Of a DNA stretch of 64,000 nucleotides, positions 1,717 through 27,867 are shown piece by piece (positions within the stretch are counted from its first letter, which is position 1; each line of letters begins with the position of its first letter). The stretch lies in contig DAOURK010000003.1 of the NCBI GenBank assembly GCA_030625085.1, positions 1-64,000 on the forward strand, in the 5' to 3' direction. The stretch comes from Pseudomonadota bacterium (lineage in GTDB: Bacteria > SZUA-182 > DTGQ01). Below the pieces are notes generated by a model. That model saw nothing but the letters and a program-made list of their open reading frames with translations. It was not told the origin of the DNA and did not search any database. Position numbers and translations under genes: made by a program.

Positions 1717-2724
1717 ATGCCCGATACCCGTAAAGCTTTTTGTGACGATTCTTCAGGCTTCTGGCTCGACCGGCCCACGTTTATCACTGGGGCCACCGGC
1801 CTGTTGGGGGGCTGGCTTGTAAAGCGCCTTTTAGATGCCGGCGCTGATGTAATCTGTTTAATAAGGGATTGGGTACCGCAGTGTGAGCTTATCCATAACA
1901 AATTGATAGAAAAGGTTAAAGTCATCCGGGGGGATGTGCGTGATCAATCATTGATTGAAAGGATATTAGGGGAATATGAGATTGAGACCGTCTTTCATCT
2001 TGCAGCCCAAACTATTGTCACTATCGCTAATCGCAACCCGATATCCACCTTTGAAAGTAATATCCGGGGGACATGGGCCCTTTTAGAGGCTTGCCGCCAT
2101 AGCTCAACTGTTAAACAAGTTATTATCGCCTCCTCGGACAAGGCTTATGGTGACCAGGGCAATCTCCCCTATAATGAGAAAATGCCTTTGCAGGGGCAGC
2201 ATCCCTATGATGTGAGCAAATCTTGTGCAGATTTGCTTGCCCATAGCTATGCAAAAACTTATGGTCTACCTATAGCCATTACACGATGCGGCAACTTTTA
2301 TGGAGGTGGCGATCTGAACTGGAACCGTATTATTCCCGGCACAATCCGATCTGTTCTGCGTGATCAATGCCCTGTCATTCGATCAAATGGAAGTAATGTG
2401 CGAGATTATTTTTATGTTGAGGATGGAGTGGCGGCATACATGCTGCTGGCTGAGTGCCTTTCAATTCGGCAAGGGTTGTGCGGTGAGGCGTTTAACTTTT
2501 CTAACGAGTTACAAATAACCGTTTTCGAACTGGTGGAAAGAGTTTTAAAATTAATGGGATCTAATTTAAAACCAAAAATTAAAAATGAAGCCGCCAATGA
2601 AATCCGTCATCAATGCCTCAGTTCAGCAAAAGCTCGTGATTTGCTGGGATGGAAACCTCTTTTCGATCTTGACCATGGTTTAGAAAAGACAATTTCTTGG
2701 TATAAGGAGTTTTTGGGCTTATGA
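1717..2724 (+). CDS. rfbG: NAD-dependent epimerase/dehydratase, CDP-glucose 4,6-dehydratase-like
   Basis: Rossmann motif [15 protein letters not shown] (YxxxK), and position next to rfbH- and rfbF-like genes. Confidence 0.8.
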
Positions 2725-4094: not shown

Positions 4095-4885
4095 ATAAAG
4101 ATGTCCCTGTGGTGATTTTCTGCGGGGGGGCCGGGACACGGCTTCGCGAAGAGACCGAGTTCAAACCCAAGCCTATGGTTACGATTGGTAATCGACCAAT
4201 TTTGTGGCACATAATGAAAATCTATGCTCATTACGGTTTTAAAAAATTCATTCTTTGCTTGGGATACAAACGTGAAATGATCAAAGAGTACTTTTATCAT
4301 TATGAGATTGTGCATAATGACGTGATCATTACTTTAGGTCGCAACAGTAATTTTCAAATCTTCAATGGCCATGATGAAGAGGATTGGCAGATAATCTTAA
4401 GCGATACCGGCGACAATGCTTATAAAGGCGCTCGATTAAAACGAATTCAAAAATACATCGGAAGTGATGAGTTAATGGTTACCTATGGTGATGGAGTAAC
4501 GGACATAGATATTAATAATCTTTTAACATTCCATAGGGCACATGGGAAAATCGCCACAGTTACCGGAGTGCGTCCTAAATTTTTAAGATTTGCTGAGCTT
4601 GAGACTCGAAGCGACCATGTAACCAAATTTACTGAAAAACCGCAAAATAATGGAAACTATATAAACGGCGGGTTTTTCGTATTTAAACGAAAAATTTTTG
4701 ATTACTTAGAAGATAGAGATAACTGTGACCTAGAAGTTGGCACCCTAGAAGAAATCTCTAAGGCGGGTGAATTGATGATATATAAACATGACAAATTCTG
4801 GGCTTGCATGGATACCTTAAGAGATGTTGAGTATCTAAATAATCTTTGGAATAGTCGTCAGGCAGCCTGGAAAATTTGGCAGTAA
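4091..4885 (+). CDS. rfbF: Glucose-1-phosphate cytidylyltransferase
   Basis: N-terminal [39 protein letters not shown]; overlaps rfbH by 4 bp. Confidence 0.9.
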
Positions 4886-6432
4886 TTCTTCAGGCAAAGG
4901 ACTATCAAATGGAAGAAAAAAATAGCGCCTTTAAGAAACTTTTTATTATGGAAATGGCTAATAACCATATGGGGAGCGTTGAGCATGGATTAAAAATTAT
5001 TAGAGACTTCCATAGGGTTTGTAAAAATTTTGACTTTCAATTCGGCTTCAAACTTCAGTACAGGAATTTGGATACATTTATCCATCCGGATTTTCAGGGA
5101 AGGCAAGATATAAAATTTATTAAACGTTTTTCAGAGACCAGATTGAAGGCGGATGAATTCAGAATATTAAAGGATGAGATAAAAAAGCTCGGCTTTATCT
5201 CGATTTGTACCCCATTTAATGAAAAGTCAGTTGATTTAATTGAAAAACATGATTTTGATATTATCAAGGTGGCCAGTTGCTCCTTCACCGATTGGCCCTT
5301 GCTGGAAAGAATAGCCTTAACTGACAAGCGTATTATAGCCTCAACAGCCAGCGCATCCATAGAGAACATAGATAAAGTGGTGATGTTTTTGGAGCACAGA
5401 GGTAAACAGTTTTGTTTAATGCATTGTGTGGCTGAATATCCAACCAAGAAAAGTAATCTACAGTTAAATCAAATCGATTTACTCAAAAAGAAATATCCCA
5501 CTATCGGGATAGGATTTTCCACTCATGAAAGCCCGGATGATCTTGATATTATAAAAGCAGCCATAGCAAAAGGGGCACAAGTTTTTGAAAAACATGTAGG
5601 AGTAGGTGATACATTAAATGCCTATTCAGCTACACCTGAGCAATTTCAAGAATGGCTAAATTCAGCTAAAGAAGCTTTTGATATGTGTGGAACCGTCGGG
5701 GACAGACCAAAGCCTTCTGAAATGGAAAAAGAAAGTCTTAGAGCTTTAAGCAGGGCGGTATTTGCTAAAAAGCCTATAATGAAGAAGGAAAGATTAGACC
5801 TGTCAAATCTTTTTTTTGCCATCCCCGGTGTGGAAGGGCAGATTTTAGCCGGCGATATATCCAAGTACACCGAATTTACTGCTACAGTCAATATTGAAAC
5901 AAATAACCCAATAATGTCACACGATGTCTTGCGAAGAGATATTCGGTCACAAGTTGTCGGTATTATAAAGGAAGTTAAGGATTTACTCCTTTCCAGTCGA
6001 CTGGCTATTCCGAATAAACTGGATTTTGAGTTATCTCATCATTATGGCATTGATAACTTTCATAAATTTGGAGCAACTATCCTTAATTGCATAAATAGAG
6101 AATACTGTAAAAAATTGATTATCCTGGTTCCCGGCCAAAGTCATCCTACCCACTTTCACAAATTAAAGGAAGAAACCTTCCATGTTCTGTTTGGTGATCT
6201 CAATTTAGAATTGAATGGAACGGCGGGAGAATATAATCCCGGTAATTTTATCACTATAGAGAGAGGAACAAAACATTCTTTTGGAACAAGGAGCGGTGTT
6301 GTTTTTGAAGAAATATCAACTACACATTATAAAAGCGATTCTTATTATGATGACCCTAAAATAGAGGAAAATAAAAAAAGGAAAACCGAATTAACCTATT
6401 GGTCAGACTGGTTGGAGGCGGGAATAAGATAG
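4876..6432 (+). CDS. NeuB-family sialic/nonulosonic acid synthase with C-terminal cupin domain
   Basis: NeuB-like N-terminal part (MEMANNHMGSVEHGLKII; GIGFSTHESPDDLDIIKAAIAKGAQVFEKHV), SAF-like region, then cupin PGQSHPTHFHKLKEETFHVLFGDLNLELNG...RGTKHSFGT. Confidence 0.82.
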   Translation: MAVILQAKDYQMEEKNSAFKKLFIMEMANNHMGSVEHGLKIIRDFHRVCKNFDFQFGFKLQYRNLDTFIHPDFQGRQDIKFIKRFSETRLKADEFRILKDEIKKLGFISICTPFNEKSVDLIEKHDFDIIKVASCSFTDWPLLERIALTDKRIIASTASASIENIDKVVMFLEHRGKQFCLMHCVAEYPTKKSNLQLNQIDLLKKKYPTIGIGFSTHESPDDLDIIKAAIAKGAQVFEKHVGVGDTLNAYSATPEQFQEWLNSAKEAFDMCGTVGDRPKPSEMEKESLRALSRAVFAKKPIMKKERLDLSNLFFAIPGVEGQILAGDISKYTEFTATVNIETNNPIMSHDVLRRDIRSQVVGIIKEVKDLLLSSRLAIPNKLDFELSHHYGIDNFHKFGATILNCINREYCKKLIILVPGQSHPTHFHKLKEETFHVLFGDLNLELNGTAGEYNPGNFITIERGTKHSFGTRSGVVFEEISTTHYKSDSYYDDPKIEENKKRKTELTYWSDWLEAGIR

Positions 6433-7008
6433 ATGATAACCATTGCCTGGGATGTGGATGATGTTCTTAATGACCTTATGCGTCTTTGGTTCGTGCGGGA
6501 ATGGTTGCCTTATAATAGAGACTCTTCACTTACCTGTGAAGATATTGTTGAAAATCCTCCTCATCAATTACTTGGCCTGAGCGAGGTTGAATATCTCAGC
6601 TCATTAGATAATTTTCGCCTTTCTAAAGTTGCTCAACAGATGCAGCCGGTACCTGAGGTGTTTTCCTGGTTTAAAGAATATGGCGGGCGCTTCAGGCATA
6701 TTGCTCTTACAGCGAGATCCCTTCAAACTGTTCCTACTGCCTCAAGTTGGGTTTTTCAATACTTTGGGTGCTGGATAAGATCATTTCATTTTATTCCAGC
6801 CAAGCGTAAAGGCCAGTCTATTCCCGAATATGATCAGACTAAAGGTGATTTTCTCCGTTGGTTTGGAAAAGTTGATATCTTAATTGATGACAGCGATTTG
6901 AACATCAACTTAGCCAAGGCTGAAGGGATAAAGGGTATTTTGATGCCCCGCCCTTGGAACGGGGAAAGAAAAGTGCCCATCTGTGAAATACTGAAGGAAT
7001 TGAGATAA
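6433..7008 (+). CDS. HAD-like hydrolase, 5'-nucleotidase (NT5C)-like
   Basis: DVDDVLND, ALTAR and DILIDDSDLNI motifs; starts immediately after the NeuB stop codon. Confidence 0.6.
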   Translation: MITIAWDVDDVLNDLMRLWFVREWLPYNRDSSLTCEDIVENPPHQLLGLSEVEYLSSLDNFRLSKVAQQMQPVPEVFSWFKEYGGRFRHIALTARSLQTVPTASSWVFQYFGCWIRSFHFIPAKRKGQSIPEYDQTKGDFLRWFGKVDILIDDSDLNINLAKAEGIKGILMPRPWNGERKVPICEILKELR

Positions 7009-7078
7009 TGAAAAATTATCCTGCCAATCCTGTTATCCTGTCTAAAAATTTTTATTTTGGTGATGGAGGAGTAAGGAG

Positions 7079-8884
7079 TTGATAAAGCTTTCAGATTATG
7101 TGATGAAATTTATTGCCGGCCTTGGTGTCAGGCATGTGTTTATGCTGCCTGGCGGGGGGTGCATGCATCTTATAGATTCCTTGGGGACAAACCCAAACAT
7201 TGAGTATGTATGTAACCTTCATGAACAGGCTTCTGCAATTGCAGCGGAGGCTTATGGGCAATACCATAATAAAATTGGTGTCGCCCTTGTCACCACCGGA
7301 CCCGGAGGCACAAATGCAATCACAGGAGTTGCCGGGGCATGGATCGATTCCACTCCTTGCCTGATCATTTCCGGCCAGGTAAAACGGGCCGACATGATTG
7401 CAGATCGTGGTGTAAGGCAGATGGGCGTGCAAGAGGTGGATATTGTTTCTATGGTTAAACCCATTACTAAATATGCCGTGACCATTCTTGATCCCAACTC
7501 AATAAGTTATCATTTGGAAAAAGCAATTTATTTGGCTAAAACAGGCCGCCCCGGCCCGGTTTGGATTGATATTCCTTTGGATGTCCAGGCAAGTATGATC
7601 GATGAAGAAAATATTCAAAGGTTCGACGCAGCCGAGGTGAAAATTCCTCCTGATCGAGGACCGGTTCATGAACAAATCACTGAGACCATAAGGCTCCTTA
7701 ATCAGGCTGATAGACCGGTGATCTTGGCTGGTAATGGCATCCGAATAGCTAAAGCCGAACAAGAGTTCCTCCAGCTTGTTGAATTACTGGGGGTCCCTGT
7801 CCTTACCACTTGGAAGGCCATAGATCTTTTACCAGAAGAGCATAACTACTTTTTTGGACGGCCGGGTTCAATTGGTCAACGAGGAGCAAATTTCATCCAA
7901 CAAAATTCTGATTGGCTGCTCACTATCGGGGCGAGACTTGACCTTGCCCAGACTGGGTATAACCACATGAACTTTGCCCGGGGGGCAAATAAGGTGATAG
8001 TTGATATTGATCCCGCTGAAATCAATAAAATGGAAATGCCTATCAATGTGCCGGTGTGTGCAGATGCAAAAAAATTTATTCGGGAATTTATTTACCAAAG
8101 AGAGCATATCAAAGATAAAGACCGCTTTGAATGGTTAGCACAGTGTAGAAACTGGAAAACGAAATACCCGGTTGTCCTTCAGGAATATTTGGATCAAAAG
8201 GATTATGTGAATACCTATGCCTTAATTGAAGTATTATCATATGAGATGACCAATGATGATATTTTGGTTCCGGGTAGCGCCGGGGCAAGCAGTGAAATTA
8301 CCATGCAAGCCTTTAAAGTGAAACAGGGGCAGCGCATTCTCAATAGCCCCGGCCTAGGGGCTATGGGTTTTGGATTGTCGGCGAGTATAGGCGCCTGCCT
8401 GGCCGGCAACAAAAAACGAACCATTTGTATTAATGGTGATGGCGGATTTCAGTTGAATATGCAAGAACTAGAGACGGTTAAGCGTTTGGATCTGCCTATT
8501 AAATTTTTTATCTTAAATAACCAGGGGTATGCTTCTATTCGAGCAACACAAAGAAATTATTTTAATGGAAGATACGTTGGGAGTGAGCAATCAAGCAGGT
8601 TAACATTCCCTGATATGCTGAAAATAGCTGATGCCTATGGTATCCCTTCAATTCGTATTGCTCATCAGCGAGAGCTTTTAAGCAAGGTCAGGGAGGTTTT
8701 CGCCTTACCTGGTCCGGTAATATGTGAGGTTATGGTAATACCTGACCAACCAACAGCGCCAAGGATGTCCGCTATGAAACGCGCTGATGGATCAATGGTT
8801 TCAAAACCATTGGAAGATTTATGGCCTTATTTAGATAGAGAAGAATTTAAAACAAATATGATGGTAAACCCTATAGAAGAATAA
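7079..8884 (+). CDS. ThDP-binding enzyme, acetolactate synthase-like (candidate YerE-type)
   Basis: HEQAS near the N-terminus, GDGGFQLNMQELETVKRLDLPIKFFILNNQGY ThDP motif; TTG start preceded by GGAGGAGTAAGGAG. Confidence 0.85.
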   Translation: MIKLSDYVMKFIAGLGVRHVFMLPGGGCMHLIDSLGTNPNIEYVCNLHEQASAIAAEAYGQYHNKIGVALVTTGPGGTNAITGVAGAWIDSTPCLIISGQVKRADMIADRGVRQMGVQEVDIVSMVKPITKYAVTILDPNSISYHLEKAIYLAKTGRPGPVWIDIPLDVQASMIDEENIQRFDAAEVKIPPDRGPVHEQITETIRLLNQADRPVILAGNGIRIAKAEQEFLQLVELLGVPVLTTWKAIDLLPEEHNYFFGRPGSIGQRGANFIQQNSDWLLTIGARLDLAQTGYNHMNFARGANKVIVDIDPAEINKMEMPINVPVCADAKKFIREFIYQREHIKDKDRFEWLAQCRNWKTKYPVVLQEYLDQKDYVNTYALIEVLSYEMTNDDILVPGSAGASSEITMQAFKVKQGQRILNSPGLGAMGFGLSASIGACLAGNKKRTICINGDGGFQLNMQELETVKRLDLPIKFFILNNQGYASIRATQRNYFNGRYVGSEQSSRLTFPDMLKIADAYGIPSIRIAHQRELLSKVREVFALPGPVICEVMVIPDQPTAPRMSAMKRADGSMVSKPLEDLWPYLDREEFKTNMMVNPIEE

Positions 8885-8893
8885 GATCGTGAA

Positions 8894-9766
8894 ATGAAAA
8901 TATTAATAACCGGGGGAAATGGGTTTATTGCCAGAAGTTTATTTGAACAACTGAATAAAGAATACAGTGTGTTTTCTCTTAATAGAAACGATCTTAACCT
9001 TTTGGATTATTTAAGGGTTTTCGATTATATCAAGAACAGCCAATTTGATGTAATAATACACACGGCTACCTATGACGCAACGCCAAAATTTTCTACCAAA
9101 AATCCATTAAAGGTCCTGGAAAATAATTTAAAAATGTTTTTTAATCTAGCCAGGTGTAAAGGTTATTTTAATAAGATGATTTATTTTGGTTCGGGTGCAG
9201 AGTTTGGCCGTGAAAATTGGATACCTAAAATGAAAGAAGATTACTTTGATCAACATGTTCCCATAGATCAATATGGTTTTTCAAAATATTTAATGACTAA
9301 ACATACGCAATTAAACAGTAATATATACAACCTTAGACTTTTCGGGGTATTTGGTAAATACGATGATTGGCGATACCGTTTTCTTCCAAATGTTTGCTGT
9401 AGAGCAGTCTTTAACCTGCCCATTATGATTAACCAAAATAATTCCTTTGATTATTTGGACATTGATGACTTAATAAAAATTGTTACATGGTTCATCAAGA
9501 ATAACCCCAAGAAGAAGGCATATAATGTCTGTACAGGTAAAGTTAATAATTTTAAAAGTTTAGCTAAAAAAGTTAGTGAAATATCATCCAAAAATTTGGA
9601 CCTTATCATTAAAACTGAAGGCCCTGGGATAGAGTACAGTGGAGACAATTCATTACTTTTGAAGGAATTAAAAAATTTTGAGTTTACTCCAATTGATGTA
9701 TCAATTAACAATTTATATGAATGGTATGATGAAAATAAACACACCATTGAAAAAGATCAATTGTAA
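8894..9766 (+). CDS. NAD-dependent epimerase/dehydratase (SDR), sugar reductase candidate
   Basis: GGNGFIA nucleotide-binding motif and YGFSKY. Confidence 0.78.
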   Translation: MKILITGGNGFIARSLFEQLNKEYSVFSLNRNDLNLLDYLRVFDYIKNSQFDVIIHTATYDATPKFSTKNPLKVLENNLKMFFNLARCKGYFNKMIYFGSGAEFGRENWIPKMKEDYFDQHVPIDQYGFSKYLMTKHTQLNSNIYNLRLFGVFGKYDDWRYRFLPNVCCRAVFNLPIMINQNNSFDYLDIDDLIKIVTWFIKNNPKKKAYNVCTGKVNNFKSLAKKVSEISSKNLDLIIKTEGPGIEYSGDNSLLLKELKNFEFTPIDVSINNLYEWYDENKHTIEKDQL

Positions 9767-9853
9767 TTGCAAATTGTAAATTTTACTCAAAATACCACCT
9801 GATTTTGAGTAGTTAGATCATTTGTAAAATTTATTTCAAAAAGGAAGAATAAA

Positions 9854-11593
9854 ATGAATATTTTATTTATTTTTCCCCTCAACGAGCCATATAACAATAT
9901 AATAAATGCCAACAAAACTGCTTGGAAATCTAAACTAAATATTCATAAAAATATAAAAAAATTAGATTGTGCCTACCCAACCGGATTATTATCTATATCC
10001 ACTTATATCAAAAAACATCATCCGGACATTAATATCAAAATCCTAGATTGTAATGCCGTTATGAATCAGGTTGCCCAAAGAAAAAATGAACGCTTTGAAA
10101 ATTTTGAGAAGTATAGGTTTGCAGATTTTTTAAAAGAGGCCTTATCATTAATTGATGGATTTATTCCGGACATTATAGGAATCTCAACGCTTTTCTGCAG
10201 TAATTATCAGGATTTAAAACCATTAACATCTTTTTTAAAAAAAAGATACCAGGAAAGCTTAACTGTTTGCGGCGGTCATCTGGCGTCATCTTGTTATGAC
10301 CGTATATATGAAGATGATTTTAAAATTGATGCAATAGCCTTTGGAGAAGGCGAAATACCATTCCTTGAGCTTGTAAAAGCTATTTTGTCCAGCAGAAAAG
10401 AAGAATATTTATCTCAGAGTCCATATTGGATAACAAAAGAAAAGAGCAAGTCCGAAATAGAATTTATTCCTCAAAATAAAGTAATTGTTGATTTAGATGA
10501 AATCCCTCCCTTTGATCTTAGTATGCTGCTATTTCCGGAAGCATATTTTAATTCGACTAGATATTTTTTTGTTATAGATTCGCAGGAAGATCAAAAAGAA
10601 ATATTTATTTTTTCAACAAGAGGGTGTCCTTTTCATTGCGTTTTTTGTGCATCACAGGCGGTACATGGACACAAAATAAGGACTTATAGTATTGATAGAA
10701 TAAAAAATGACATTTTATACTATTATGAAAAATATAATATAACTCGATTTGTTTTTTATGATGATCATTTTTTAATTAACAAGGATAAGGCGATCGAAAT
10801 ACTGGATTTTATTTCAGAAAAGAATTTTATCGCTGAAATACCTACACCCGCTTTTTTTTCGATCGATGCGGATATTGCTGCAGCAATGAAGCGTGCAGGT
10901 ATTAAAGAAGTCAATATTACCATTGAAAGCGGAAATGAAAATACTTTAAAAAAAATTATGCATAAACCGGGAAACTTAAAAAAGGCGGAGGAAGCTGTAG
11001 ATTTTCTTCACCAAGAAGGCATTATTGCAGTTTCGAATATTTTGATTGGTTTACCTGGAGAAACAAAAGAATCTATTGATAAGGGTTTGGAGTACTTGTT
11101 GACAACAAGTAGTAATTGGTTCCAGTGTTTTGTTGCTGCACCTCTTCCAGGAAGTGAACTGTATAAAATCTGCGAGAAAAATGGATACCTTGTAACCAAT
11201 TACGACCTATCAACAATGGATTATAAAAAATGTTTAGTGAGGACCAAAGATTTTACATCGGAATATATTGAAAAAAAGGTGTATGAGATGAATTTAACCC
11301 TTAATTTTGTGCACAATTACGACATTCGAAAGGGAAATTATACTATTGCACTAAAGCTTTTTGAAAGGATAGTCAATTCTGTAATAGATACACACGCTTT
11401 TGCCTATTATTTTGCCGCCAAATGTTGCAGGATGTTGCATTGCAATGAAAAATACAAAATTTATAAAGCAAAATACCAAGAAATGATAGAAAAATATCCA
11501 TTTTGGAGAGAATATGCAAATCAATTTCATTTAGAAGAGCTTGATGCTCTTAAGGAAGAGAATACTCATCCATATCAAACGGCTTTATTATGA
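9854..11593 (+). CDS. B12-binding-domain radical SAM protein
   Basis: N-terminal B12-binding-like region, then STRGCPFHCVFCASQ (CxxxCxxC) and radical SAM TIM-barrel motifs. Confidence 0.85.
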   Translation: MNILFIFPLNEPYNNIINANKTAWKSKLNIHKNIKKLDCAYPTGLLSISTYIKKHHPDINIKILDCNAVMNQVAQRKNERFENFEKYRFADFLKEALSLIDGFIPDIIGISTLFCSNYQDLKPLTSFLKKRYQESLTVCGGHLASSCYDRIYEDDFKIDAIAFGEGEIPFLELVKAILSSRKEEYLSQSPYWITKEKSKSEIEFIPQNKVIVDLDEIPPFDLSMLLFPEAYFNSTRYFFVIDSQEDQKEIFIFSTRGCPFHCVFCASQAVHGHKIRTYSIDRIKNDILYYYEKYNITRFVFYDDHFLINKDKAIEILDFISEKNFIAEIPTPAFFSIDADIAAAMKRAGIKEVNITIESGNENTLKKIMHKPGNLKKAEEAVDFLHQEGIIAVSNILIGLPGETKESIDKGLEYLLTTSSNWFQCFVAAPLPGSELYKICEKNGYLVTNYDLSTMDYKKCLVRTKDFTSEYIEKKVYEMNLTLNFVHNYDIRKGNYTIALKLFERIVNSVIDTHAFAYYFAAKCCRMLHCNEKYKIYKAKYQEMIEKYPFWREYANQFHLEELDALKEENTHPYQTALL

Positions 11594-12081
11594 ATATACA
11601 TGATGCAATCGAATTTTTGGGAAAACAGATTTCAAACCCTTTAGTAGGATTACCTGAAGAGTTGTTTTTCTTCATTAGCCGAATTACTCCAATGGTAAAT
11701 GTTGATCTCCTTATAAAAGATGAAAATGAACGGATACTTTTATCATGGAGGGATGATTCATTTCATGATGCAGGCTGGCATATTCCTGGTGGTATTGTAC
11801 GTTTTAAGGAAAAACTAGAAGAAAGAGTCCTGAAAGTTGCAGAAACAGAAATTGGTACTGTAGTCGAATATGATCCTGTTCCAATTACGATCAACCAGAT
11901 TATCTGCGAGCATAATACCAGAGGACATTTTATCTCAATCTTATATAGATGCTTTCTTTCTAGTAAATACATTCCTGAAAATATAGGGTTATCAAATAAA
12001 GATCAAGGTTATCTTATGTGGCACAATTCTTGTCCTGTAAACCTAATAAAAGTGCACGAAATATACAGAGAGTATATGTAG
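11590..12081 (+). CDS. Nudix hydrolase, GDP-mannose mannosyl hydrolase-like
   Basis: WHIPGGIVRFKEKLEERVLKVAETEIG resembles the modified Nudix box of Gmm proteins. Confidence 0.75.
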   Translation: MNIHDAIEFLGKQISNPLVGLPEELFFFISRITPMVNVDLLIKDENERILLSWRDDSFHDAGWHIPGGIVRFKEKLEERVLKVAETEIGTVVEYDPVPITINQIICEHNTRGHFISILYRCFLSSKYIPENIGLSNKDQGYLMWHNSCPVNLIKVHEIYREYM

Positions 12082-12126
12082 TGTAGTAGCTTACAAAATA
12101 AGATAAAGAATTTTAAGGAATATTTT

Positions 12127-13263
12127 ATGCCAATCGATAGGTGTAGGGTTTGTAATCATACATTTTTCAAGGAACCATTGTTACGATACGAGAATATGCC
12201 AAGGGCTGCTCAATTTTTGCCGGACGCAGAGTCGTTTGAAAGGGATACAGGGGTTGATCTGGAAATCTATCAATGTTCCGGTTGTGGATTGGTACAGCTA
12301 AATACTGATCCAGTATCTTATTATAAAAAAGTTATACGCGCCGCTGCTTTTTCAGAGGAAATGAAAGATTTTCGAAGAAGTCAATTCGGCAGCTTCATAC
12401 AAAAATTTTCCCTCAAAAGTAAAAAAGTCCTTGAGGTCGGCTGTGGCAGTGGAGAGTTCCTGTCCATTATGCAGCGCCTTGGTGTAAAGGCTTATGGATT
12501 GGAGCATTCTGAAGAATCGGTGAGGCAGTGTGTCAAAAATGGCCTAAAGGTTTCCAAAGGATTTGTTGAAAGCAGTAATGCTAGGTTAAACCATGCGCCA
12601 TTTGATGCCTTTTATATATTGAATTTTCTTGAACACCTCCCTGACCCGAAGGCAACTCTTAAAGGAATAGGTAACAATTTAACAGATGACGCTGTAGGAA
12701 TTGTCGAGGTGCCGAACTTTGATATGATTTTACGAAACAACCTTTTCTCTGAATTTATAGGTGATCATCTATTGTATTTTACCAAGGGGACTTTGAGTAC
12801 GACATTGAGGCAAAACGGCTTTGAAATTATTGACTGTACCGAAGTGTGGCAGGATTACATAATTTCTGCAGTTGTAAAGAAAAGGGAAAAGCTGAACATA
12901 TCCCATTTTTATGCTTATCAGAGAAAACTCAAAGATGAAATCGAAGAATATCTCCATCCTTTTAAGGATAAAAAAGTAGCCATATGGGGTGCCGGACATC
13001 AAGCACTGGCCATTATTTCTTTATTAAATTTAGCTGACAGAATTAAGTATGTCGTTGACTCCGCAACATTTAAACAGGGTAAATATACACCAGCCACACA
13101 TGTGCCCATTGTTTCACCTGACATTCTTGAATCAGACCCGGTAGATGCCGTAGTTGTTATGGCGGCGAGTTACTCCGGTGAAATAGCAAAAATTATACGA
13201 CAGAAGTTTGATAGAAATATAAAGGTTTCTATATTGAGAGATTTTGGATTGGAAGTTGTTTGA
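12127..13263 (+). CDS. Sugar C-methyltransferase family protein (zinc-binding N-terminus, SAM domain, C-terminal domain)
   Basis: CRVCNH...CSGCGLVQL; VLEVGCGSGEFLSIM; C-terminal KVAIWGAGHQALAIISLL. Confidence 0.82.
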   Translation: MPIDRCRVCNHTFFKEPLLRYENMPRAAQFLPDAESFERDTGVDLEIYQCSGCGLVQLNTDPVSYYKKVIRAAAFSEEMKDFRRSQFGSFIQKFSLKSKKVLEVGCGSGEFLSIMQRLGVKAYGLEHSEESVRQCVKNGLKVSKGFVESSNARLNHAPFDAFYILNFLEHLPDPKATLKGIGNNLTDDAVGIVEVPNFDMILRNNLFSEFIGDHLLYFTKGTLSTTLRQNGFEIIDCTEVWQDYIISAVVKKREKLNISHFYAYQRKLKDEIEEYLHPFKDKKVAIWGAGHQALAIISLLNLADRIKYVVDSATFKQGKYTPATHVPIVSPDILESDPVDAVVVMAASYSGEIAKIIRQKFDRNIKVSILRDFGLEVV

Positions 13264-13402
13264 CTGGCACATATGAAGCAATAATCCACGTTTATAAGAG
13301 GTATAGAAAATTTATATGATTTAAAAGCCTTATTTGATACATAGTTTATTCAGAAGACAATTTTATTAAATAGAAAATCAATTTATTAAAGGTGAGATTA
13401 TT

Positions 13403-14476
13403 ATGTCAAGGCAACAAGGGCATTTAAAATCAGATGAAACAAAAAAAAGGAACTTACTAAAAAAAGAAAAACCCTATGTCTATGAAAAAATTATGCGATT
13501 TGATGAAAAGGTTAACAGTGGAGAGAGCATAGCCATACTGCAGTTTCAATACGATTATACCTGTAATTTTAAATGTAAACATTGTTCAGTAAAGAGATTC
13601 CAAGGGAAAAAGAAAGGAAGATTCTTTACAATTAATGATGTAAAGGAACTTTCACGCCAAGCTGATGAAATGGGGCTTGCGCATATTGTCATCACAGGCG
13701 GCGAGCCATTAATATTCCCGGATTTTGATGATATCGTCAGGGCTATAGACCCTCAAAAATTTTACATAACTTCGGATACTAATGGATGGTTCTTGGATGC
13801 AGAAAGAGCAAAGCATTTAAAAAGTATAGGAGTTGATAAAATTCAGCTCAGTCTTGATAGCCTTTTAGCGACTGAGCATGATGAATTCAGGCAAAAAACG
13901 GGGGCCCATGAAAGGGCCGTAAGAGCTATTGATGCAGCTTTGGATGCTGGATTGAATATTATTATACAAACGGTAGTTACCAAGCAAAGAGTGAAATCAA
14001 AAGAGTTCATTGATTTTTTAGAATTTGGGAAGAGAAAAGGAATAGGGGTATTTGTGACTTATGCAAAGCCTGTTGGACCTTGGGAGGGAAATTTTGATGT
14101 TCTTGTCAATAAAGATGATATGGGTTATGTAAGAGAACTCGAGAAAAAGTATGAGGTGTTTACACACTTGACCCCGGCGTATGGTCTTGATTTAGGCTGC
14201 ATAGCAGTTAAAAGAATGGTGTCTATCACAAAGTATGGCGATGTAATGCCGTGTCCATATATTCATACTTCTATTGGTAACTTTTTTAAAGAGCCATTAA
14301 AAGACATTATTGAAAAAGGTATGAAGATTAAATATTTTCGTAAATATATCAATACTTGTCTTATTGCAGAAGATAGAAAATTTATTAATGACTATGTGGT
14401 AAAAATCTATGGTAAAGAACTTCCGGTCCCTTATTCTGAAATATTTAAGGATGAGGACAATACCCTGTTGCCTTAA
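13403..14476 (+). CDS. Radical SAM/SPASM-like protein
   Basis: YDYTCNFKCKHCSV, VITGGEPL; C-terminal GCIAVKRMVSITKYGDVMPCPYI. Confidence 0.85.
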   Translation: MSRQQGHLKSDETKKRNLLKKEKPYVYEKIMRFDEKVNSGESIAILQFQYDYTCNFKCKHCSVKRFQGKKKGRFFTINDVKELSRQADEMGLAHIVITGGEPLIFPDFDDIVRAIDPQKFYITSDTNGWFLDAERAKHLKSIGVDKIQLSLDSLLATEHDEFRQKTGAHERAVRAIDAALDAGLNIIIQTVVTKQRVKSKEFIDFLEFGKRKGIGVFVTYAKPVGPWEGNFDVLVNKDDMGYVRELEKKYEVFTHLTPAYGLDLGCIAVKRMVSITKYGDVMPCPYIHTSIGNFFKEPLKDIIEKGMKIKYFRKYINTCLIAEDRKFINDYVVKIYGKELPVPYSEIFKDEDNTLLP

Positions 14477-14488
14477 GGGGGGACAAAA

Positions 14489-15577
14489 ATGAAAAAAGCT
14501 GCCAATAGCCATGCCTTTGTTAAGGATTTGATAAGCGTTATAGTCCCTGTATTCAATAGTCAAAAATATCTTCGTCTGTGCATTAAAAGTATTATCAAGC
14601 AAAGTTATAACAATATTGAAGTGATACTCATCAATGATGGTTCAACTGATAATAGTGGTGAACTGTGCGATGGATATGCTCTTAGTGACAACAGAATCAG
14701 AGTGATACACACCCAAAACAGGGGGCCGGCAGCAGCAAGAAATACGGGCATAGAGCATTCAAAAGGAAGTTCCTTGTTTTTTGTTGATGCTGATGATTCC
14801 ATCGAGATTAACGCCTTAAAACTGTTAGTTGAAAAGTATAACCAACACAAAGCGGACATAATAATAGGGGATTTTATCAAAATTAAAGATAAAACCTCTG
14901 ATTCCGGGCATGGCGCTGTTTTTTCCAGCAGTAAATTTTTAACCAAACAAGATATTATAGCCTATACAAGATGTTATTTAAGAAAACCCAATAGGTTCCC
15001 ACTATTTGTTTATTCTTGGGGAAGATTGTTTAAATCGTCAATCATAAAGAAAAATAATATTTTCTTTAATACTGATTTGCGTACATTTGAAGATGTGGCT
15101 TTTAATTTTGATTATCTAAATTATGCAAATAACCTATTTTTTATAAACGAACCCATCTATAACCACTTAATTCATGATAATAATTATGCATCAACAAGCA
15201 TGATGATATTCAATAATCCCAAAATTTTGTTTGGATACAACCAAGCTCTCGCCAATATAACCGTTTTTCTGAAAAATTGTAGTTCTGATTCCGACATAAA
15301 AAAAGAAGTTGGACATGCATACGTTTGTTACACGATAATCCAGTTAGTCCGTACTTGTGGACAGATTAATACTACTGTTAAAAAAAAGATTTATGCTCTT
15401 ATCAGGGAGATAATTAATGATTCAAATTTCAGAGATAATTTACAATTTTACTCTCCAACCAAAGGTGACAGTAGAATTCTGCCTATCCTAATGAAATTAA
15501 AACTCGTTTGGCCGATTATTTCGGTCTGTAAGTATAAAGCCCATAAAAGATATAGAAAAAGATACGCCGCCAGATGA
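14489..15577 (+). CDS. Glycosyltransferase family 2
   Basis: ISVIVPVFNSQKYLRLCIKSIIKQSYNNIEVILINDGSTDNS, FFVDADDSIE. Confidence 0.88.
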   Translation: MKKAANSHAFVKDLISVIVPVFNSQKYLRLCIKSIIKQSYNNIEVILINDGSTDNSGELCDGYALSDNRIRVIHTQNRGPAAARNTGIEHSKGSSLFFVDADDSIEINALKLLVEKYNQHKADIIIGDFIKIKDKTSDSGHGAVFSSSKFLTKQDIIAYTRCYLRKPNRFPLFVYSWGRLFKSSIIKKNNIFFNTDLRTFEDVAFNFDYLNYANNLFFINEPIYNHLIHDNNYASTSMMIFNNPKILFGYNQALANITVFLKNCSSDSDIKKEVGHAYVCYTIIQLVRTCGQINTTVKKKIYALIREIINDSNFRDNLQFYSPTKGDSRILPILMKLKLVWPIISVCKYKAHKRYRKRYAAR

Positions 15578-16818
15578 TCTCTATTGAAAATTCATTAAAA
15601 CAAGAAACCATTGAAAAAATTAAGAGAGAAGGAATTCCGGTAATAATATTTGGTGCTGGAATTGTCGGGGAAGCGTTATTTCATATTTGTTGCAATGTCG
15701 GAATTAAAGTCGAAGGTTTTTGCGACAATAATATCAATAAAACAAAATCTTCTATGTTTAACCTTGAAGTAATCCATACGCTGCATTTAAAAAGGAAATA
15801 TAAGGATGCCATTTTTTTAATATCTGCTGCCGACATAATAGACGTTGTTGATCAATTACATGTCTTAGGATACTCCAAATGGTATGCCGTCAATTTATTA
15901 TTAAAAGACTTTGATGTGTCTCAATATCCCTTCAGTGCCCCAACTGGCTTTGTGGAATTTGCAGTTGGTACATGCCTTTTATGTCATGATGGTTATTTAA
16001 ATCCTGATAAACTTTTTTTAAGAAGTGTAGATATTATTATTACCGAACGTTGTTCTTTAAAATGCAAAGATTGCTCTAACCTTATGCAGTATTACCAAAA
16101 ACCGATAAATTGTACTTACCAAGAATTGATGCAAGCCATAGATGGGTTTTGTGCTTTAATAGATGAAGTTAATGAATTTCGAGTTATTGGCGGAGAGCCA
16201 TTTATGAATAAAGAAATTCATTTAATTATAAAGAGACTGATTGATGAACCTAAAGTGCGCAAAATCGTGATTTACACAAATGGAACAATTGTTCCTAAAG
16301 AAGTTCAAATTGAATATTTAAAGAGCAGCAAGGTATTGATCTTTATTACAGACTATGGCGTGCTTTCAAGAAAACTAAACCTTCTAACTCAAATATTGCA
16401 ACAGAATTATATATCTTTTTATGCACGAAAAGCTCAAGGATGGACTGATTGCGCTAAAATAATGAGGCATGATCGTAATATTGAACAACAAAAAAAAATA
16501 TTTGAAAATTGCTGCGCTAAAAATACTTTTACTTTATCAAAAGGCAAACTGTATATATGCCCTTTTTCTGCAAATGCAGACAGACTCCAGGCGGTTCCGG
16601 GTTTTGAGAATGATTATATAGATCTCTTTCAATCCCCGCGAGGGGCCATGGATATTTATGAGATGAAAAAGAAAATCAGAACTTTTCTTTTAGAGAAAGA
16701 TTTCCTTGAAACATGTGATTACTGCAATGGAAGGTCATTTTATGCCCCTGAGATAACACCGGCCATTCAAACAGAAAATCCTTTAGAATATGAGCAGTGC
16801 TATTTAAATAGCCGGTAG
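15574..16818 (+). CDS. Radical SAM protein with N-terminal Rossmann-like domain
   Basis: IIFGAGIVGEALFHICCNVGIKVEGFCDNN; ITERCSLKCKDCSNLM; RVIGGEPFMN. Confidence 0.8.
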   Translation: MISIENSLKQETIEKIKREGIPVIIFGAGIVGEALFHICCNVGIKVEGFCDNNINKTKSSMFNLEVIHTLHLKRKYKDAIFLISAADIIDVVDQLHVLGYSKWYAVNLLLKDFDVSQYPFSAPTGFVEFAVGTCLLCHDGYLNPDKLFLRSVDIIITERCSLKCKDCSNLMQYYQKPINCTYQELMQAIDGFCALIDEVNEFRVIGGEPFMNKEIHLIIKRLIDEPKVRKIVIYTNGTIVPKEVQIEYLKSSKVLIFITDYGVLSRKLNLLTQILQQNYISFYARKAQGWTDCAKIMRHDRNIEQQKKIFENCCAKNTFTLSKGKLYICPFSANADRLQAVPGFENDYIDLFQSPRGAMDIYEMKKKIRTFLLEKDFLETCDYCNGRSFYAPEITPAIQTENPLEYEQCYLNSR

Positions 16819-16869: not shown

Positions 16870-19800
16870 TTATCGCGTGGCCAGGAAATTTTGTAAAGCC
16901 TCCAGGTTTTGCGTGGCATCCTGGTTTGCGGGCTCAATCTCCAGTACGCGATGGTAAAAATCCTCAGCATCATCGAATTTTTTTAAGGCAACAAAGATGT
17001 GCCCTGTGATCAAAAGGGTTTCAACATCATCCGGATTTGCCGCCAGTATATTTACATAGATTCGAAGCGCTTCCTCTGCCCTCCCCGATTCAACGTATAA
17101 AAAGTCCGCCAGGTTTTTCCGGAAAATTATATTTTCAGGTTCAATCTGCACGGCTTGCCGGTAGTAATTTAAGGCTTTCTCTTTATCTCCCGTGTTATAG
17201 TGCAAAACACCCAGGTCGTTATGGGCCAGGGCAAAATCAGGGAATGAATTTGCGAGATTTTCAAATTTACTGATAGCTTCTTCAGGTTTGATGGCGCCAA
17301 TCATATTATGGATGCCGCGGTATATTTCATCCGGAGATTCCGGTTTCAAATCAGCACGTTCATTGGGCCCCTGAACATCTTTCGCCTTTTTATCAAGTTT
17401 TTTCTTTCCCTGAAGAGAATAATCTTTTCCCTTATACGCCGGTATATCGGTTTTTTGTTCGTCTATCCTGCTGCGGACTTCAAGGGCGGCCTTCAGGATT
17501 TTGTCATCTATACCGAAGTTGATCATGGCCTTCTGAATTTCCTGCAATGCCCCCTCATTTTTGCCCTGTTGTATCAATAGATCGATCAAAAGGAGGGCAA
17601 TCCTTTTGTGAAACGGATAGAGCGATTTTGCCTCCCGGAATACCCTTTCAGCCCTTTCAAACTCTTTCAGTTTGGTAATCGCCGAGTGATAGATTGTTGC
17701 CATATCTTTTGCCGCCGGAGTGAGGATAAATCCCTTTTCCATGCAGTTCAATGCTTTTTCCTTTTGTCCGTCAACCCACCTGAGAACCCCGATGTACGTA
17801 TATGGCTCGCCAAATCCCGGATCAACCTCCATGGCCCTGCCAAAGAATTTTTCCGCATCGACGGCATGACCCCTCCTGTAAGCAATGATTCCCTTCAGAT
17901 TGAGAGCCGATGAAGACTTGCTATCCAGTAAAAGGGCGCTGTCCGCGCATTGCGCGGCCTCCTCATACAGCTCCAACCCTTGCTTGCAATACCCTGTCAG
18001 CACAATGGTTCTCGCGTTGTCTCCTATATCTCGGGGGATGGAGTTGATGGCCTCAAGGGCGTCCTTGAAGCGACCGGAATTGATTAACATCCCGGCCAAA
18101 CAGTGATATATTGCCTTTTCATCCGGGCAATACTTTAGCCCGTCGATAAGCCGCACTACGGCCTTGTCAATGTCCTCCCTATGGCAGAGCTTTTTCGCAT
18201 CCTCTATTGCATTTAGGACTGCAAGTCTTTTCCCGTCATGGCTCTTTGTATCTATACCACTCCATTTATGATTAAAGGACCTCCTGCTCGATTTTGGATA
18301 ATGGTCGCCGCATAATACGAATACATCACCGGCAATGATGTTATTGTATCCTGCCAAGGCTGCGCGAAGACAATAGTCATCAGACTCGCTGTCCTGCTCA
18401 AGCTCTTCGTCGAAGAGGCCTGTTTTTCCCGCGAGGCTGCGGCGAAAAAGCATGCAGAAGCCCGCTGTGTGCCGTGAGGGTATGCGCCGGTAGAGCTTTC
18501 TTTCACGAAATACCCCAGCGTATTTTTCGAGTTGATCAATTTTAATATGATCAGAGCCGGGCACATATTGAATGCCAACCGCCTTGTTATCTGTCATGGG
18601 GCCGACGATACCAACATCGTCTGTGCTGTTAATGCATCGCAGCATGCCCTCTAACCATCCGTCCGCAACAAGCACATGGTCTCGCATAAGGACAATGTAT
18701 TCCCCGGAAGATGCCTCCATCCCCATATTAAAGCATTCGCCCTGCCCGGCTTCCTTTCCGGTCTTGATCACACTATAGTTCGATTTTTCTTTTTCTGTTT
18801 GTCTTATCCATTCCACTGTGCCGTCCTTGCTGCCGTTGTCAATAAATATTACCTCATGGGCCACGGGGGTGTGCTTCCTTATGTTCTCGATACATTTCTT
18901 AAAATGTATGGTATGAGCGGATAAAGGTATAATAATACTGACGGTGGCAGGGTTGCATTTTTTCTTGAACAGAACCTTGGAACTGTCCCCACTCTTGGTT
19001 TTGAGCTGTTCATAATGCGCTACGACTTCCTGTACTTCGGTATTGCCGGGCTGTTTCAAATTTGCCAGGCGAACCACAAACTCGGCGCGTTTTAAATCAC
19101 CCTGTCCGAGAAAAAGTCCGGAGAGGAATATCAAAGACTGAATGTGGTGCGGATCTATCCGGAGCGCGTGCTCGACTTGTTTTATCGCTTCAACCGTCTG
19201 ATTATTTTCCTTGGCAATGCAGGCGAGCTGATACAGGGATTCGACAAAGGTAGGATCTTTGATCAAATCGTCCTCGTAAATGGCGATCGCTTCCGCATAT
19301 TTTTTTTCTTGAACTAATTGTTCCGGCAGGGGATGGGTATCATAGGGATGATTAATGCACGGTACGTCAGAATCTACGATGATGTCGTTGGCTTTGGCGA
19401 TAAAATAGCCTTCTCCGCGTACGCGTCGCTGCAGGAACCAGAACAGATCCTCATCATTTCCGCTTTGTCCCAGGCCCTTTATCAAAGGCCGGATGAGTTT
19501 GCTATTGATCACACAGAGAGACAGATCTGCATACTGAATGATCTCGACGTTTTTCCCCTTCTTTGTTTTGTGTGCATGGGTGGAGGGGGCGTAGTTGCCG
19601 ATGGGGACCATAACCGCAACATCCGGGTAACAGAGCGCTGTGTCAATAAGCGCCCGGAGTTTTTCAGGAGAAGGGACAAGGCGTTTATCGACGAGAACGA
19701 TGAAATCATAATCTCCCTTCATGATCGTTTCAATCAGCCGGGTTTTTGTCAAATTGCCGCCAATGGTAACAACTTCCCCTTGACAGGAATCCGCCAAGGC

Positions 19801-22800
19801 CGCATACCGGTTTAGTCGGTCCGCTGTTTCAGATACGCCGGTATTGTTTTCGGCAATACATATCCTGGGGGGCCGCATAATTGTATTCTCGGCAATGGGG
19901 ATATGATCGTCCGGCCCGTAAGGTTTTAAGGTGAGCTCTCCGTGCTGTCCGACTGCCACGCGGTCGTTTTGCCGCAGCTTTTGCAGATATTTTTTTTTGT
20001 TAATATTCTGGGCGGGCCCGAACAGGTCGGGTCGGTATTTGCTGACCGTAACACTGCCGAAGTGGTGGATAAAGACATCATTGGCCACAACCGACTTGTA
20101 TCCTGCCAGGCGAAACCGCAGAGAAAAATCGTCATCACTGAAACCATAACCGCCGTCTCTGCCATTGGTGGGAAGATCAGGGTCCCACCCGCCGATCCGA
20201 TTGAAAATTGATTTTTTTATAATCACAGCCATGCCGACAATACGGTCATGGACAAAATTTTTTCCTTGATGTTCCTTGCTCCATCCGGCAGCAAATGTCT
20301 GGTATGCCTCAAGGGTATCATATCCAGACTGCATAGCCTGGGGGCCGCTTACATTGTTTGAACGTGGCCCTACAATTCCTATGTCGGGAGCAGATTCAAT
20401 TTGAGTGATAAAATTTTTAAGCCAGCCATCATGCACCAGGACGTCATTGCAGACACCGACACAATATTTTCCTCGTGCAAGTGAGAAAACATAATTGGCG
20501 TTTGCCTCTACGACCCGGTTCTGATAATATCTGATGACACGGGTATGGGGATGAAAAGCGCTAACAGATTCAAAATACTCAAACGTGCCGTCTGTTGAGC
20601 CATTGTCCATAAGCAACAATTCATACGGGCCCTCGGTGTAATGCAGGATGCTCTCAACACACTTCCTCGTGTACTGTAGCTGGTTATATGCCCCAACAAT
20701 AATACTGGCATTAATCTTTTCGCTGTCTTCCCGGCCAATCGATGGCAAAGCTGCATCATCAGCCGAAAGATCTCCCGCGGAACTTGATGAAGCTAATTGT
20801 ACAAAAGGTGACGGTGTGACCTGCGGCAGAGGCGAGGCAACAGCGTTAAATCCGATGTGCTTAAATATATCAACAAGCCTGTGTGTCCACGTGTGCTCGG
20901 CAAGTGTTCGCTCATATCCGCGCCGGGCAATTTCTTCCCGTTCACCTTCATGGGCAAGATAATACCTTGATTTGTCAATCAGTTCCTCTAATGAGGAGGC
21001 AATTACCACCTCCTTGTCAGGTTCATAGTACTCTTCAAGGTTGTCCACAGGAGTTGTGACTAAAAATCCATGACATCCGGGCACTTCAAAATTTCGCCTT
21101 CTTATTGGCTGCGTGGTGATGGCGGATGAATTACCGAGATTAAGATTGATCCTGGATTGATTAAAAATCCTCACCATATCATAAAAGGGGATATACGAGT
21201 CTTCATTCCAACCGGCCCCGAATACATCAACAGGTAAACCGCTTTGTCTTATCTTCTCAATAAGTTCTAAACGATTGCCCTTTCCCGCGCCGACAAAGCT
21301 TACGTCCCTTGCCCCGGGAGCCGGTGTCGGCTGGTAGGTGAACGGGTTGAAGGCCCACTGGCTCTTGATGATTTTTGGGCCGAAACCGGCTCCGTGATAT
21401 TTGCCGGCGGCTTTGTGTGAGGTCGTGATGATATGGTCGGCACAGGTCGCCCATAGTAGTGCGTAATCATCAAAGCGCAGATGGTCATCATTCATCCAGA
21501 TGATTGTTTGTGTGTCAGTGTGATCAGTTATAGATTTTAAGCTTTCATGAAGAATATCAGCCTGCAGATCGGAAGGACTGTACAAGAGCAAATCAGGCTG
21601 TTCTTGGCGGACGATCTCCACCAGGCGGTCCGACATGCCCGCAACCCCACGCTGCTGAGCCTCCGTGGCATAATCAAAAAATTGCACCTCTACGTTCTCA
21701 AAGTGGTGCAGAGCATTAAATATATTCCACCACCCGTAGTCATATCCTCTTCGCGCATTGCCGGAGGAAAATTTGACGCCTGCAGCCAATACCTTTATTG
21801 ACGGTTTCTTTCCGATCAGGAAGGACTTATGGTCTCGCTCTGCAGCATCGACAGGCCTCCGTGCATTTGAGTCCAGTCGCTCATTGATGATTTTTCCGTT
21901 TCCCGGCACGGGCGGCTTTGCTTTCGATAAATGCTTCCAGGTCCACATCACTGGCACGCTTATGAACTTCCAGTTCCTTGCCGTAGGTGGAACGGCTTTC
22001 CCTTTGGTCCATGTCTTGTCGCCGGCAAATAACATCTCCGGCGATTTTGATGAAGCTGCGGCGCACAGTGCCGCCAGTGAATCATAGAAGGGGAATGATG
22101 AATATTTTCGCAGATTTCCACCAGTGACCCATGCGTCAATGGCAGCAACATGCCGCTCGTAATCTTTATATGACATGCACCGAAGGTACTTGTCTAGTTC
22201 CCCGAGGTTGTCAAATTGCCGGAAATCAATAAAACAATTTTCAGGAATATACTTCTCGATGTTTGAGGCGCCGAGATAAATCGGGATTGTCCTGGTTTCA
22301 AAGCAATCGAGGATTTTTTCGGTAATATAGCCGGCAGAGAGGACCGGATGATTGGTGTTTTCAAAACAGAGGTTGTATCGATATTGCTTCTGCACAGATA
22401 ATTTTCGGCCTTCCGGGATCGCACCGCGGTAATTGGACAGGGGGAAAGGCGGTGTGCCGTATACATCGAAGGGGATGTCCGAGTTTTTGGAAAACCACTC
22501 TGCAACCTCAATGCGCTTTGAATAGAGCTCGCCGGGAACATGGGACCGCTTGTTGCCGCTGATCATGCAGATGGCATTCTTGCGGCATGGCAGAGGATAA
22601 AGCAATTCGCGCTGACTTTGCCGATCCGTTACCGGTTCCTCTTTTAATCCGGCGCGGGGGAAGAGTATTTTATGGAATTTATTGTCCCGCCCAATCAGCG
22701 CATCAAATAAACCAAATACATGGTCAAAGTGTTTCCAGATACCCTCATCAAATTCACCCGGCAGCACAACAGCCGGCTCCAGCATGAGCAAGATGTTTAA

Positions 22801-26217: not shown

Positions 26218-26535
26218 GAAGACATAACATTATTATCTATCTTCACACCCTAATTTCATGCCAACCAAAGCAACACTTATATATATTATCGGAATATTTA
26301 AAAATATCTTTAAGGTATTTTTAAAAATGCAGATATGCTGCAAGATTATCCATAATCTTTTGGGGTCGAAATAGGTATATATGCGGCTCCAGGTGGCTTG
26401 AGGCACAATTTTCGGGGCGCCCCGAATTTTTTTTTACGATTTAGTGAATTTTGACTGAAGTTTTAAAAGGATTGTCCGATAGAAAAAGCAGAGGCTGAAA
26501 AAATCAAGGTTAAAGGCTGAAAAATTAAAATCCGG

Positions 26536-26704
26536 AAGGAGGTGAAAAAAATAAGCACCTGATAAAAAAAAGTGATGAAAAAAGATTGAAAAAACCGCCG
26601 ATGAAATCGGCCGAGCACAAAATCGGTAAAGTACAAAAACATTACCGGTAAGAATTACCGGTAAGAATTACCGAAAACAAAATTCCTAGAAAAGGAGAAT
26701 CAGC
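26536..26704 (+). promoter_or_regulatory. A-rich structured leader of the plus-strand flagellin
   Basis: AAGGAGGTGA at 26536-26545, AGGTG/CACCT inverted pair (26540-26544/26556-26560), GCCGATGAAATCGGC hairpin, and 13-bp tandem repeats at 26641-26673. Confidence 0.4.
26641..26673. repeat. Tandem repeat, 13-bp unit, about 2.5 copies
   Basis: ATTACCGGTAAGA ATTACCGGTAAGA ATTACCG. Confidence 0.85.
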
Positions 26705-27814: not shown

Positions 27815-27837
27815 TAAACAAGATCAAGTAATGGATC

Positions 27838-27867
27838 AAAATGGGGGGGCTTGCCCCCCCATTTTTT
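27838..27867 (+). terminator. Rho-independent terminator after flagellin
   Basis: AAAATGGGGGGGC-TT-GCCCCCCCATTTT followed by a T tract. Confidence 0.9.

Follow-up and report, generated by a model that had tools for sequence, protein, structure and literature searches.

The 64,000-nt stretch of contig DAOURK010000003.1 analysed here (the window; assembly GCA_030625085.1, Pseudomonadota bacterium, GTDB lineage SZUA-182) contains a single run of genes on the + strand (1717–16818, from rfbG to rSAM3), in which three genes for radical S-adenosylmethionine (SAM) enzymes, termed rSAM1, rSAM2 and rSAM3, are interspersed with genes of nucleotide-sugar metabolism. The three genes and their cluster partners probably represent a real, previously undescribed way to reshape surface sugars, because archaea and very distant bacteria have these genes together as well. 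The run comprises the following genes, in this order (positions in the window; L numbers denote loci of other genomes):

1717..2724, +, RfbG-like nucleoside diphosphate-sugar 4,6-dehydratase of the short-chain dehydrogenase/reductase (SDR) type; 57% identity to the L005 copy, 40% to that of L006
2721..4094, +, RfbH (E1, CDP-4-keto-6-deoxyglucose 3-dehydrase type; CDP, cytidine diphosphate); 54–61% identity in L005, L006, L007, L032, L097 and L106
4091..4885, +, RfbF, glucose-1-phosphate cytidylyltransferase; copies at 39–47% identity in L006, L007, L009 and L010
4876..6432, +, NeuB/SpsE-type phosphoenolpyruvate (PEP)-condensing synthase fused to a cupin domain (NeuB-cupin; PF03102 and PF07883); nearest PDB entry 3g8r
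6433..7008, +, HAD-like phosphatase (DVDDVLND motif by eye); a 50% identical copy lies beside YerE in L006
7079..8884, +, YerE-like thiamine diphosphate (ThDP) lyase, a predicted C-C ligase acting on a 4-keto sugar (GDGx24N motif); best PDB match 8rph
8894..9766, +, NAD-dependent epimerase/reductase of the SDR type (PF01370); homologues in L008, L111 and L113
9854..11593, +, rSAM1, B12-binding radical SAM enzyme (PF04055, PF02310)
11590..12081, +, Gmm-like Nudix protein; 41–64% identity in L005, L006, L010, L097, L098, L106, L111 and L113
12127..13263, +, TylC3/NovU-like sugar C-methyltransferase (PF13489 and PF08484); 51–57% identity in L096, L097, L098 and L106
13403..14476, +, rSAM2, MoaA/SPASM-like radical SAM enzyme with a three-cysteine auxiliary site (PF04055, PF13186)
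14489..15577, +, family 2 glycosyltransferase (GT2), partner of rSAM3 (PF00535, 6.5e-39)
15574..16818, +, rSAM3, Rossmann domain followed by a Twitch radical SAM enzyme with an extra invariant C314 (PF04055, GxGxxG)

The three radical SAM enzymes

The initial annotation, based on the letters of the window, had described three radical SAM open reading frames (ORFs) with the CxxxCxxC motif, at 9854, 13403 and 15574. All three are confirmed by matches to PF04055 above the cut-off of 29.5 bits (82.5, 93 and 35.5 bits, respectively) and by motif cysteines that are invariant across all aligned relatives (C258/C262/C265 in rSAM1, C54/C58/C61 in rSAM2 and C160/C164/C167 in rSAM3). The architectures ascribed to them, i.e. 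a B12-binding domain (PF02310) in rSAM1, a SPASM domain (PF13186) in rSAM2 and an N-terminal Rossmann-like domain with GxGxxG in rSAM3, hold as well, and the interleaved Gmm-like Nudix protein, TylC3/NovU-like C-methyltransferase and GT2 are indeed found at 11590, 12127 and 14489. The best family for the Nudix protein is GDP-mannose mannosyl hydrolase (2.2e-8, under the cut-off of that family), while scans of Pfam and NCBIfam gave no match for the HAD-like protein. The tight clustering of the radical SAM genes is by itself only mildly unusual: the genome (4.94 Mb) has 67 PF04055 matches, and by a rough estimate chance alone would produce ~0.15 equally tight triplets in it. Given so many matches, proximity is weak evidence, and the case rests on conservation across genomes.

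rSAM1 combines the B12-binding domain (38.4 bits, cut-off 32.1) with the radical SAM core, which is the architecture of cobalamin radical SAM methyltransferases, and it shares this arrangement with enzymes of the HpnJ, BchE and PhpK/Sden_1168 types, whose profiles it matches. Unlike them, it stays far under every NCBIfam equivalog cut-off (the best, NF038361, gives 144.7 bits against a cut-off of 575), which places it outside the characterised subfamilies, in a distinct family with four invariant cysteines (C258, C262, C265 and C524). C-methylation is a possible reaction of rSAM1. rSAM2 matches the SPASM profile with 27.8 bits (cut-off 21.5) and contains six cysteines in total, none of which varies among nine relatives: the triad of the SAM cluster and the auxiliary C266, C284 and C319. 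Because the auxiliary cysteines number three, this is not a full seven-cysteine SPASM domain. In MoaA, three cysteines likewise hold the auxiliary cluster and leave one iron site open, and MoaA is also the closest PDB relative of the rSAM2 core (1.9e-25). In contrast to MoaA-like SPASM/Twitch enzymes (including BlsE and PqqE), rSAM2 reaches no equivalog cut-off and, in the genomes sampled, is found solely with the NeuB-cupin and YerE pair. The predicted structure of rSAM2 was too poor (pLDDT 59) and was discarded.

Conservation across genomes

Relatives of rSAM3 were collected in one scan over 84,980 species, which yielded 14 loci, among them a Methanoperedens archaeon (70% identity), a Patescibacterium (65%), Marinimicrobia, Rhodocyclaceae, SAR11, Ferrithrix, Lachnospiraceae and Burkholderiales. 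The archaeal locus (L005) contains, in addition to rSAM3, rSAM2 (72%), GT2 (66%), Nudix (64%), NeuB-cupin (64%), YerE (66%), rfbH (61%), rfbG (57%) and a C-methyltransferase (34%). The Patescibacterium locus (L006) lacks the C-methyltransferase, shares the rest of this set and has rfbF and the HAD-like gene in addition, and the SAR11 locus (L010) combines rSAM3 and rSAM2 with Nudix, rfbF, rfbG and NeuB-cupin. In three loci of Pseudomonadota (L038–L040) GT2, rSAM3 and rSAM1 are consecutive (rSAM1 37–38% identical over ~560 residues); full-length homologues of rSAM1 (33–38%) thus lie directly beside rSAM3 there, and occur with YerE in L099, L101 and L111. In each of three genomes (G132, G140 and G192) the three radical SAM families, YerE and NeuB-cupin are all present, spread over separate contigs. 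The co-conservation with rfbFGH that the initial annotation had proposed as a test is therefore observed in distant genomes, where it extends to YerE, NeuB-cupin, Nudix, the C-methyltransferase and GT2; the outcome set beforehand as counting against its proposal, a lack of co-conservation of the families with each other or with sugar genes, did not occur.

rSAM3 is rare (5/399, 5/300 and 1/380 genomes in three sampled phyla, each sample counting the genome on which it was centred), and it was found in none of the 8 other genomes of the phylum of the window (9 genomes in total), none of which has the three families. Of the 11 sampled Pseudomonadota genomes that have both NeuB-cupin and YerE, 8 possess rSAM2 (500–660 bits), as against 0 of 66 other genomes (10 with YerE only, 2 with NeuB-cupin only, 1 with rSAM3 only and 53 controls). 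The p-value of this association is 8e-9, but the co-occurrence p-values overstate independence because the rSAM2 sequences form about four lineages (89–97% identity inside two groups). Some loci carry a fourth family, rSAM4 (SPASM), in place of others, and the clusters thus seem to draw two or three radical SAM enzymes out of a small pool. Another glycan cluster with multiple radical SAM genes is found on plasmid pBHWA1 of Brachyspira hyodysenteriae (L061, 7246–16105), where an rSAM3-like gene lies among glycan genes together with a tandem array of five rSAM4/SPASM family genes. A phage origin was also considered, and no match was found in phage records; two viral_contigs entries that carry rSAM3 both look like ordinary sugar clusters, and the viral link was dropped.

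The evidence that GT2 and rSAM3 form a functional pair is strong, as it comes from synteny, co-evolution and a natural fusion. Their genes overlap by 4 bp (ATGA), and hence are probably translationally coupled. GT2 is directly beside rSAM3 or fused to it in 17 of the 18 loci with long-form rSAM3, the exception (L007) being a short contig. In L032 one ORF of 628 residues consists of a full-length GT2 (34% identity to the GT2 of the window over residues 14–355) that runs straight into a full-length rSAM3. The identity matrices of the two families are correlated over 14 loci (Mantel r = 0.93, p = 5e-5), also after removal of the closest relatives (r = 0.75, p = 1e-4).

The CDP-sugar, lyase and synthase genes

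The translation of RfbH has His at the position of the pyridoxal phosphate (PLP)-binding Lys (PAHHIT) and the cysteine set of a [2Fe-2S] cluster; replacement of the PLP lysine by His and iron-sulfur cysteines are the hallmarks of E1 dehydrases, to which we assign it. The ThDP enzyme is identified as YerE-like by the GDGx24N motif, which falls within the signature GDG(X)24-27N, by its best PDB match (8rph, 451 bits vs 297 for acetolactate synthase) and by the RfbFGH genes alongside (1717–4885). We take 8rph to be the structure of JanthE, a YerE-like enzyme. NeuB enzymes make long hydroxylated alpha-keto acids from PEP and an aldose. A JanthE structure has been described, its code not being given (PMC12247030), and YerE-like enzymes attach the acyl unit of an alpha-keto acid to C4 of CDP-3,6-dideoxy-4-ketoglucose (PMC12247030); one of them, ErwE, needs or prefers long hydroxylated alpha-keto acids (PMC12247030).

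Among the 399 Pseudomonadota genomes, NeuB-cupin is present in 13, the YerE-like lyase in 21 and both in 11 (Fisher p = 3e-14), i.e. the lyase occurs in 11 of 13 genomes with NeuB-cupin vs 10 of 386 others; judging from coordinates, 8 of the 11 genomes with both genes carry them next to each other. Recurrent around them are the C-methyltransferase (51–57%), Nudix, rSAM2 (60–61%) and rSAM1 (33–36%). The side-by-side placement of NeuB-cupin and YerE points to the synthase as the supplier of the lyase. L008 (3282–8608) encodes a sister pathway, in which YerE is followed by an HpcH/HpaI-type aldolase, in the place of NeuB-cupin, and then by rSAM4, an epimerase, a further protein with Rossmann and radical SAM domains, and a C-methyltransferase; the aldolase may be an alternative source of the keto acid. 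Judging from gene content, the probable product of the cluster in the window is a higher sugar branched at C4, comparable to erwiniose or caryophyllose. The cluster has RfbFGH and a YerE-like ThDP lyase in common with the YerE, ErwE and MMAR_2332 pathways of yersiniose, erwiniose and caryophyllose (PMC12247030), from which it differs by the NeuB-cupin adjoining the lyase and by the two or three radical SAM enzymes; our searches of the open-access literature brought up no description of either feature. Bradyrhizose was considered as a product, and no link was drawn, as the published eleven-gene cluster names no ThDP or radical SAM gene.

Candidate chemistry and alternative explanations

The family profile of rSAM3 has its best sequence match in the PDB to SpeY (7wzv, 2e-10), and the structural model (mean pLDDT 82) finds its best fold match in the SpeY entries (1.6e-10), titled "Twitch Radical SAM Dehydrogenase". 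SpeY acts in spectinomycin biosynthesis; SpeY, BtrN, HygY and NeoN are Twitch (or related) enzymes of aminocyclitol antibiotic pathways and act on sugar or cyclitol alcohols. rSAM3 shares with them the CxxxCxxC core, the fold and the four Twitch cysteines (C313, C329, C381 and C384, present in 27/27 sequences), and we classify it as a Twitch enzyme on the basis of the four auxiliary cysteines and the matching fold. Unlike these enzymes, it carries an additional Rossmann domain at the N-terminus, an invariant CC motif and a dedicated GT2 partner, and it sits in surface-glycan rather than antibiotic clusters. The N-terminal domain resembles Rossmann domains of the Rex and VioB type, which suggests binding of a nucleotide or nucleotide-sugar. 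As the nearest solved fold is that of a sugar-alcohol dehydrogenase, the substrate is most likely a sugar rather than a peptide. Of the radical chemistry on a sugar or a glycosylated protein that had been proposed initially, it is thus the sugar that the SpeY-like fold of rSAM3 favours; a specific link to flagellin found no support.

The additional C314 is found in 18/18 long-form members of the rSAM3 family and in 0/9 outliers, and corresponds to Lys in SpeY. Short rSAM3 relatives (~290–330 residues) in genomes of Bacillota type (L016, L054, L055, L058 and L059) all lack C314, and most of them lack the Rossmann domain. In the epimerisation by NeoN, Cys249 is the hydrogen donor (PMC10991966), and a paper on HygY, according to its title as cited there, reports that mutating a single cysteine reveals latent dehydrogenase activity in that epimerase (PMC10991966). 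By analogy with these two enzymes, the invariant C314 suggests epimerase rather than dehydrogenase chemistry for rSAM3.

We give an even chance to the proposal that the cluster (1717–16818) serves to synthesise an unusual branched deoxy-sugar and to remodel it through radical chemistry. Judging from the known families, RfbF, RfbG and RfbH would make CDP-4-keto-3,6-dideoxyglucose, while NeuB-cupin would condense an aldose (phosphate) and PEP, forming a long alpha-keto acid from which the HAD-like protein would remove the phosphate. The YerE-like lyase would decarboxylate the keto acid and couple the acyl group to the CDP-sugar at C4, yielding a higher-carbon C4-branched sugar that could be tailored by the C-methyltransferase, the epimerase/reductase and rSAM1/rSAM2, with the Nudix protein clearing wrong CDP-sugars. 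GT2 would transfer the sugar, and rSAM3 may abstract hydrogen at a carbon of the sugar, either in the donor or in the newly formed glycoside; C314, near the Twitch cluster, could return a hydrogen from the other face, as the single cysteine does in NeoN and HygY, resulting in inversion (epimerisation). More tentatively, and with somewhat less than even confidence, we propose that this is a previously undescribed cross-domain pathway, in which a keto acid from NeuB-cupin is grafted by YerE-like C-C bond formation onto a CDP-deoxysugar, the GT2–rSAM3 pair inverts or oxidises a sugar carbon during transfer, and rSAM1 and rSAM2 remodel the new carbon skeleton. Searches of the open-access literature brought up no account of radical SAM enzymes with O-antigen, polysaccharide or flagellin glycosylation, or with branched-chain sugars.

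Several observations weigh against this proposal. The match between rSAM3 and SpeY is distant (17% identity, TM-score 0.5 relative to query length), the activity of SpeY is that of a dehydrogenase and not of an epimerase, and position 314 could play a structural role. It is conceivable, if rather unlikely, that rSAM3 is a SpeY/BtrN-like sugar-alcohol dehydrogenase that leaves a keto group, with C314 merely supporting the auxiliary cluster: its nearest solved fold is that of a dehydrogenase, the Twitch cluster that would accept the second electron is fully conserved, and the SDR epimerase/reductase of the cluster could reduce the resulting ketone. The distribution of C314, invariant in the 18 long-form sequences, variable in the 9 outliers and replaced by Lys in SpeY, is however the pattern expected of a hydrogen donor. 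With respect to the branched sugar, the E3 reductase that is the usual partner of RfbH did not turn up in the window, beyond which no search aimed at E3 was made, and NeuB-cupin could instead make a nonulosonate used as a sugar itself. We regard as similarly unlikely the view that the two enzymes work independently, YerE, supplied with pyruvate, forming a yersiniose-type sugar while NeuB-cupin provides a separate nonulosonic acid. YpYerE does prefer pyruvate (PMC12247030), and 10 sampled genomes have YerE and lack NeuB-cupin, but the frequent adjacency of the two genes (8/11 genomes) argues for cooperation, rSAM2 tracks the pair and not YerE alone (8/11 vs 0/10), and the NeuB-cupin fusion is unlike ordinary NeuB synthases, which end in a SAF domain.

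The proposed pathway is also qualified by the absence of rSAM1 and rSAM3 from some loci that have rSAM2 and YerE (L096 has just a distant relative of rSAM1); such patchy presence implies that the radical SAM enzymes are partly interchangeable modules rather than parts of one fixed pathway. That they are unrelated genes gathered by coincidence in a variable glycan island is very improbable: the genome is rich in radical SAM genes and glycan islands are mosaic, but this explanation is already contradicted by the repeated occurrence of these families with these partners in different phyla, by the restriction of rSAM2 (8/11 vs 0/66 genomes) and by the fusion and co-evolution of GT2 and rSAM3. We also consider it improbable, though less so, that at least one of the enzymes acts on a protein or peptide instead of the sugar, either a glycosylated flagellin or a substrate resembling ribosomally synthesised and post-translationally modified peptides (RiPPs). 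The profile matches of rSAM2 include peptide maturases and a flagellin-like gene lies at 26705–27814, but the closest structural relatives have small molecules and sugars as substrates, no precursor gene is present, and flagellin was not found in related loci. Intergenic gaps of ≤139 bp from 8894 to 16818 leave no room for a short precursor peptide gene next to a radical SAM gene, and a RiPP cassette was therefore rejected.

To our knowledge, sugar-editing radical SAM enzymes are known almost only from antibiotic pathways. If the proposed pathway is correct, a GT2–radical SAM pair conserved from archaea to SAR11 would extend such chemistry to the surface glycans of common environmental microbes, would account for some unassigned branched or epimerised sugars, and would be a source of new C-C bond-forming and epimerising biocatalysts. 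The pairing of the PEP synthase with the ThDP lyase offers a concrete route to long-chain branched sugars and bears on the keto-acid donor in YerE-like clusters.

Further along the window, 25342–31316 comprises the flagellin-like gene, a second Flagellin_N protein (25342–26217) and a 961-residue GT2-TPR protein (28431–31316), which suggests flagellin glycosylation near the cluster. The co-conservation with flagellin that the initial annotation had proposed as a test was not borne out: blastp searches with the flagellins of the window found none in the related loci, whose bearers include SAR11, Patescibacteria and an archaeon. With the flagellin context confined to the window among the loci compared, a flagellin-specific pathway is not supported. 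Directly after rSAM3, on the opposite strand (16870–24345, –), lies a gene for a protein of 2491 residues with an FkbM methyltransferase domain, GT10-like and GT1-like domains, two GT2 domains and TPR domains.

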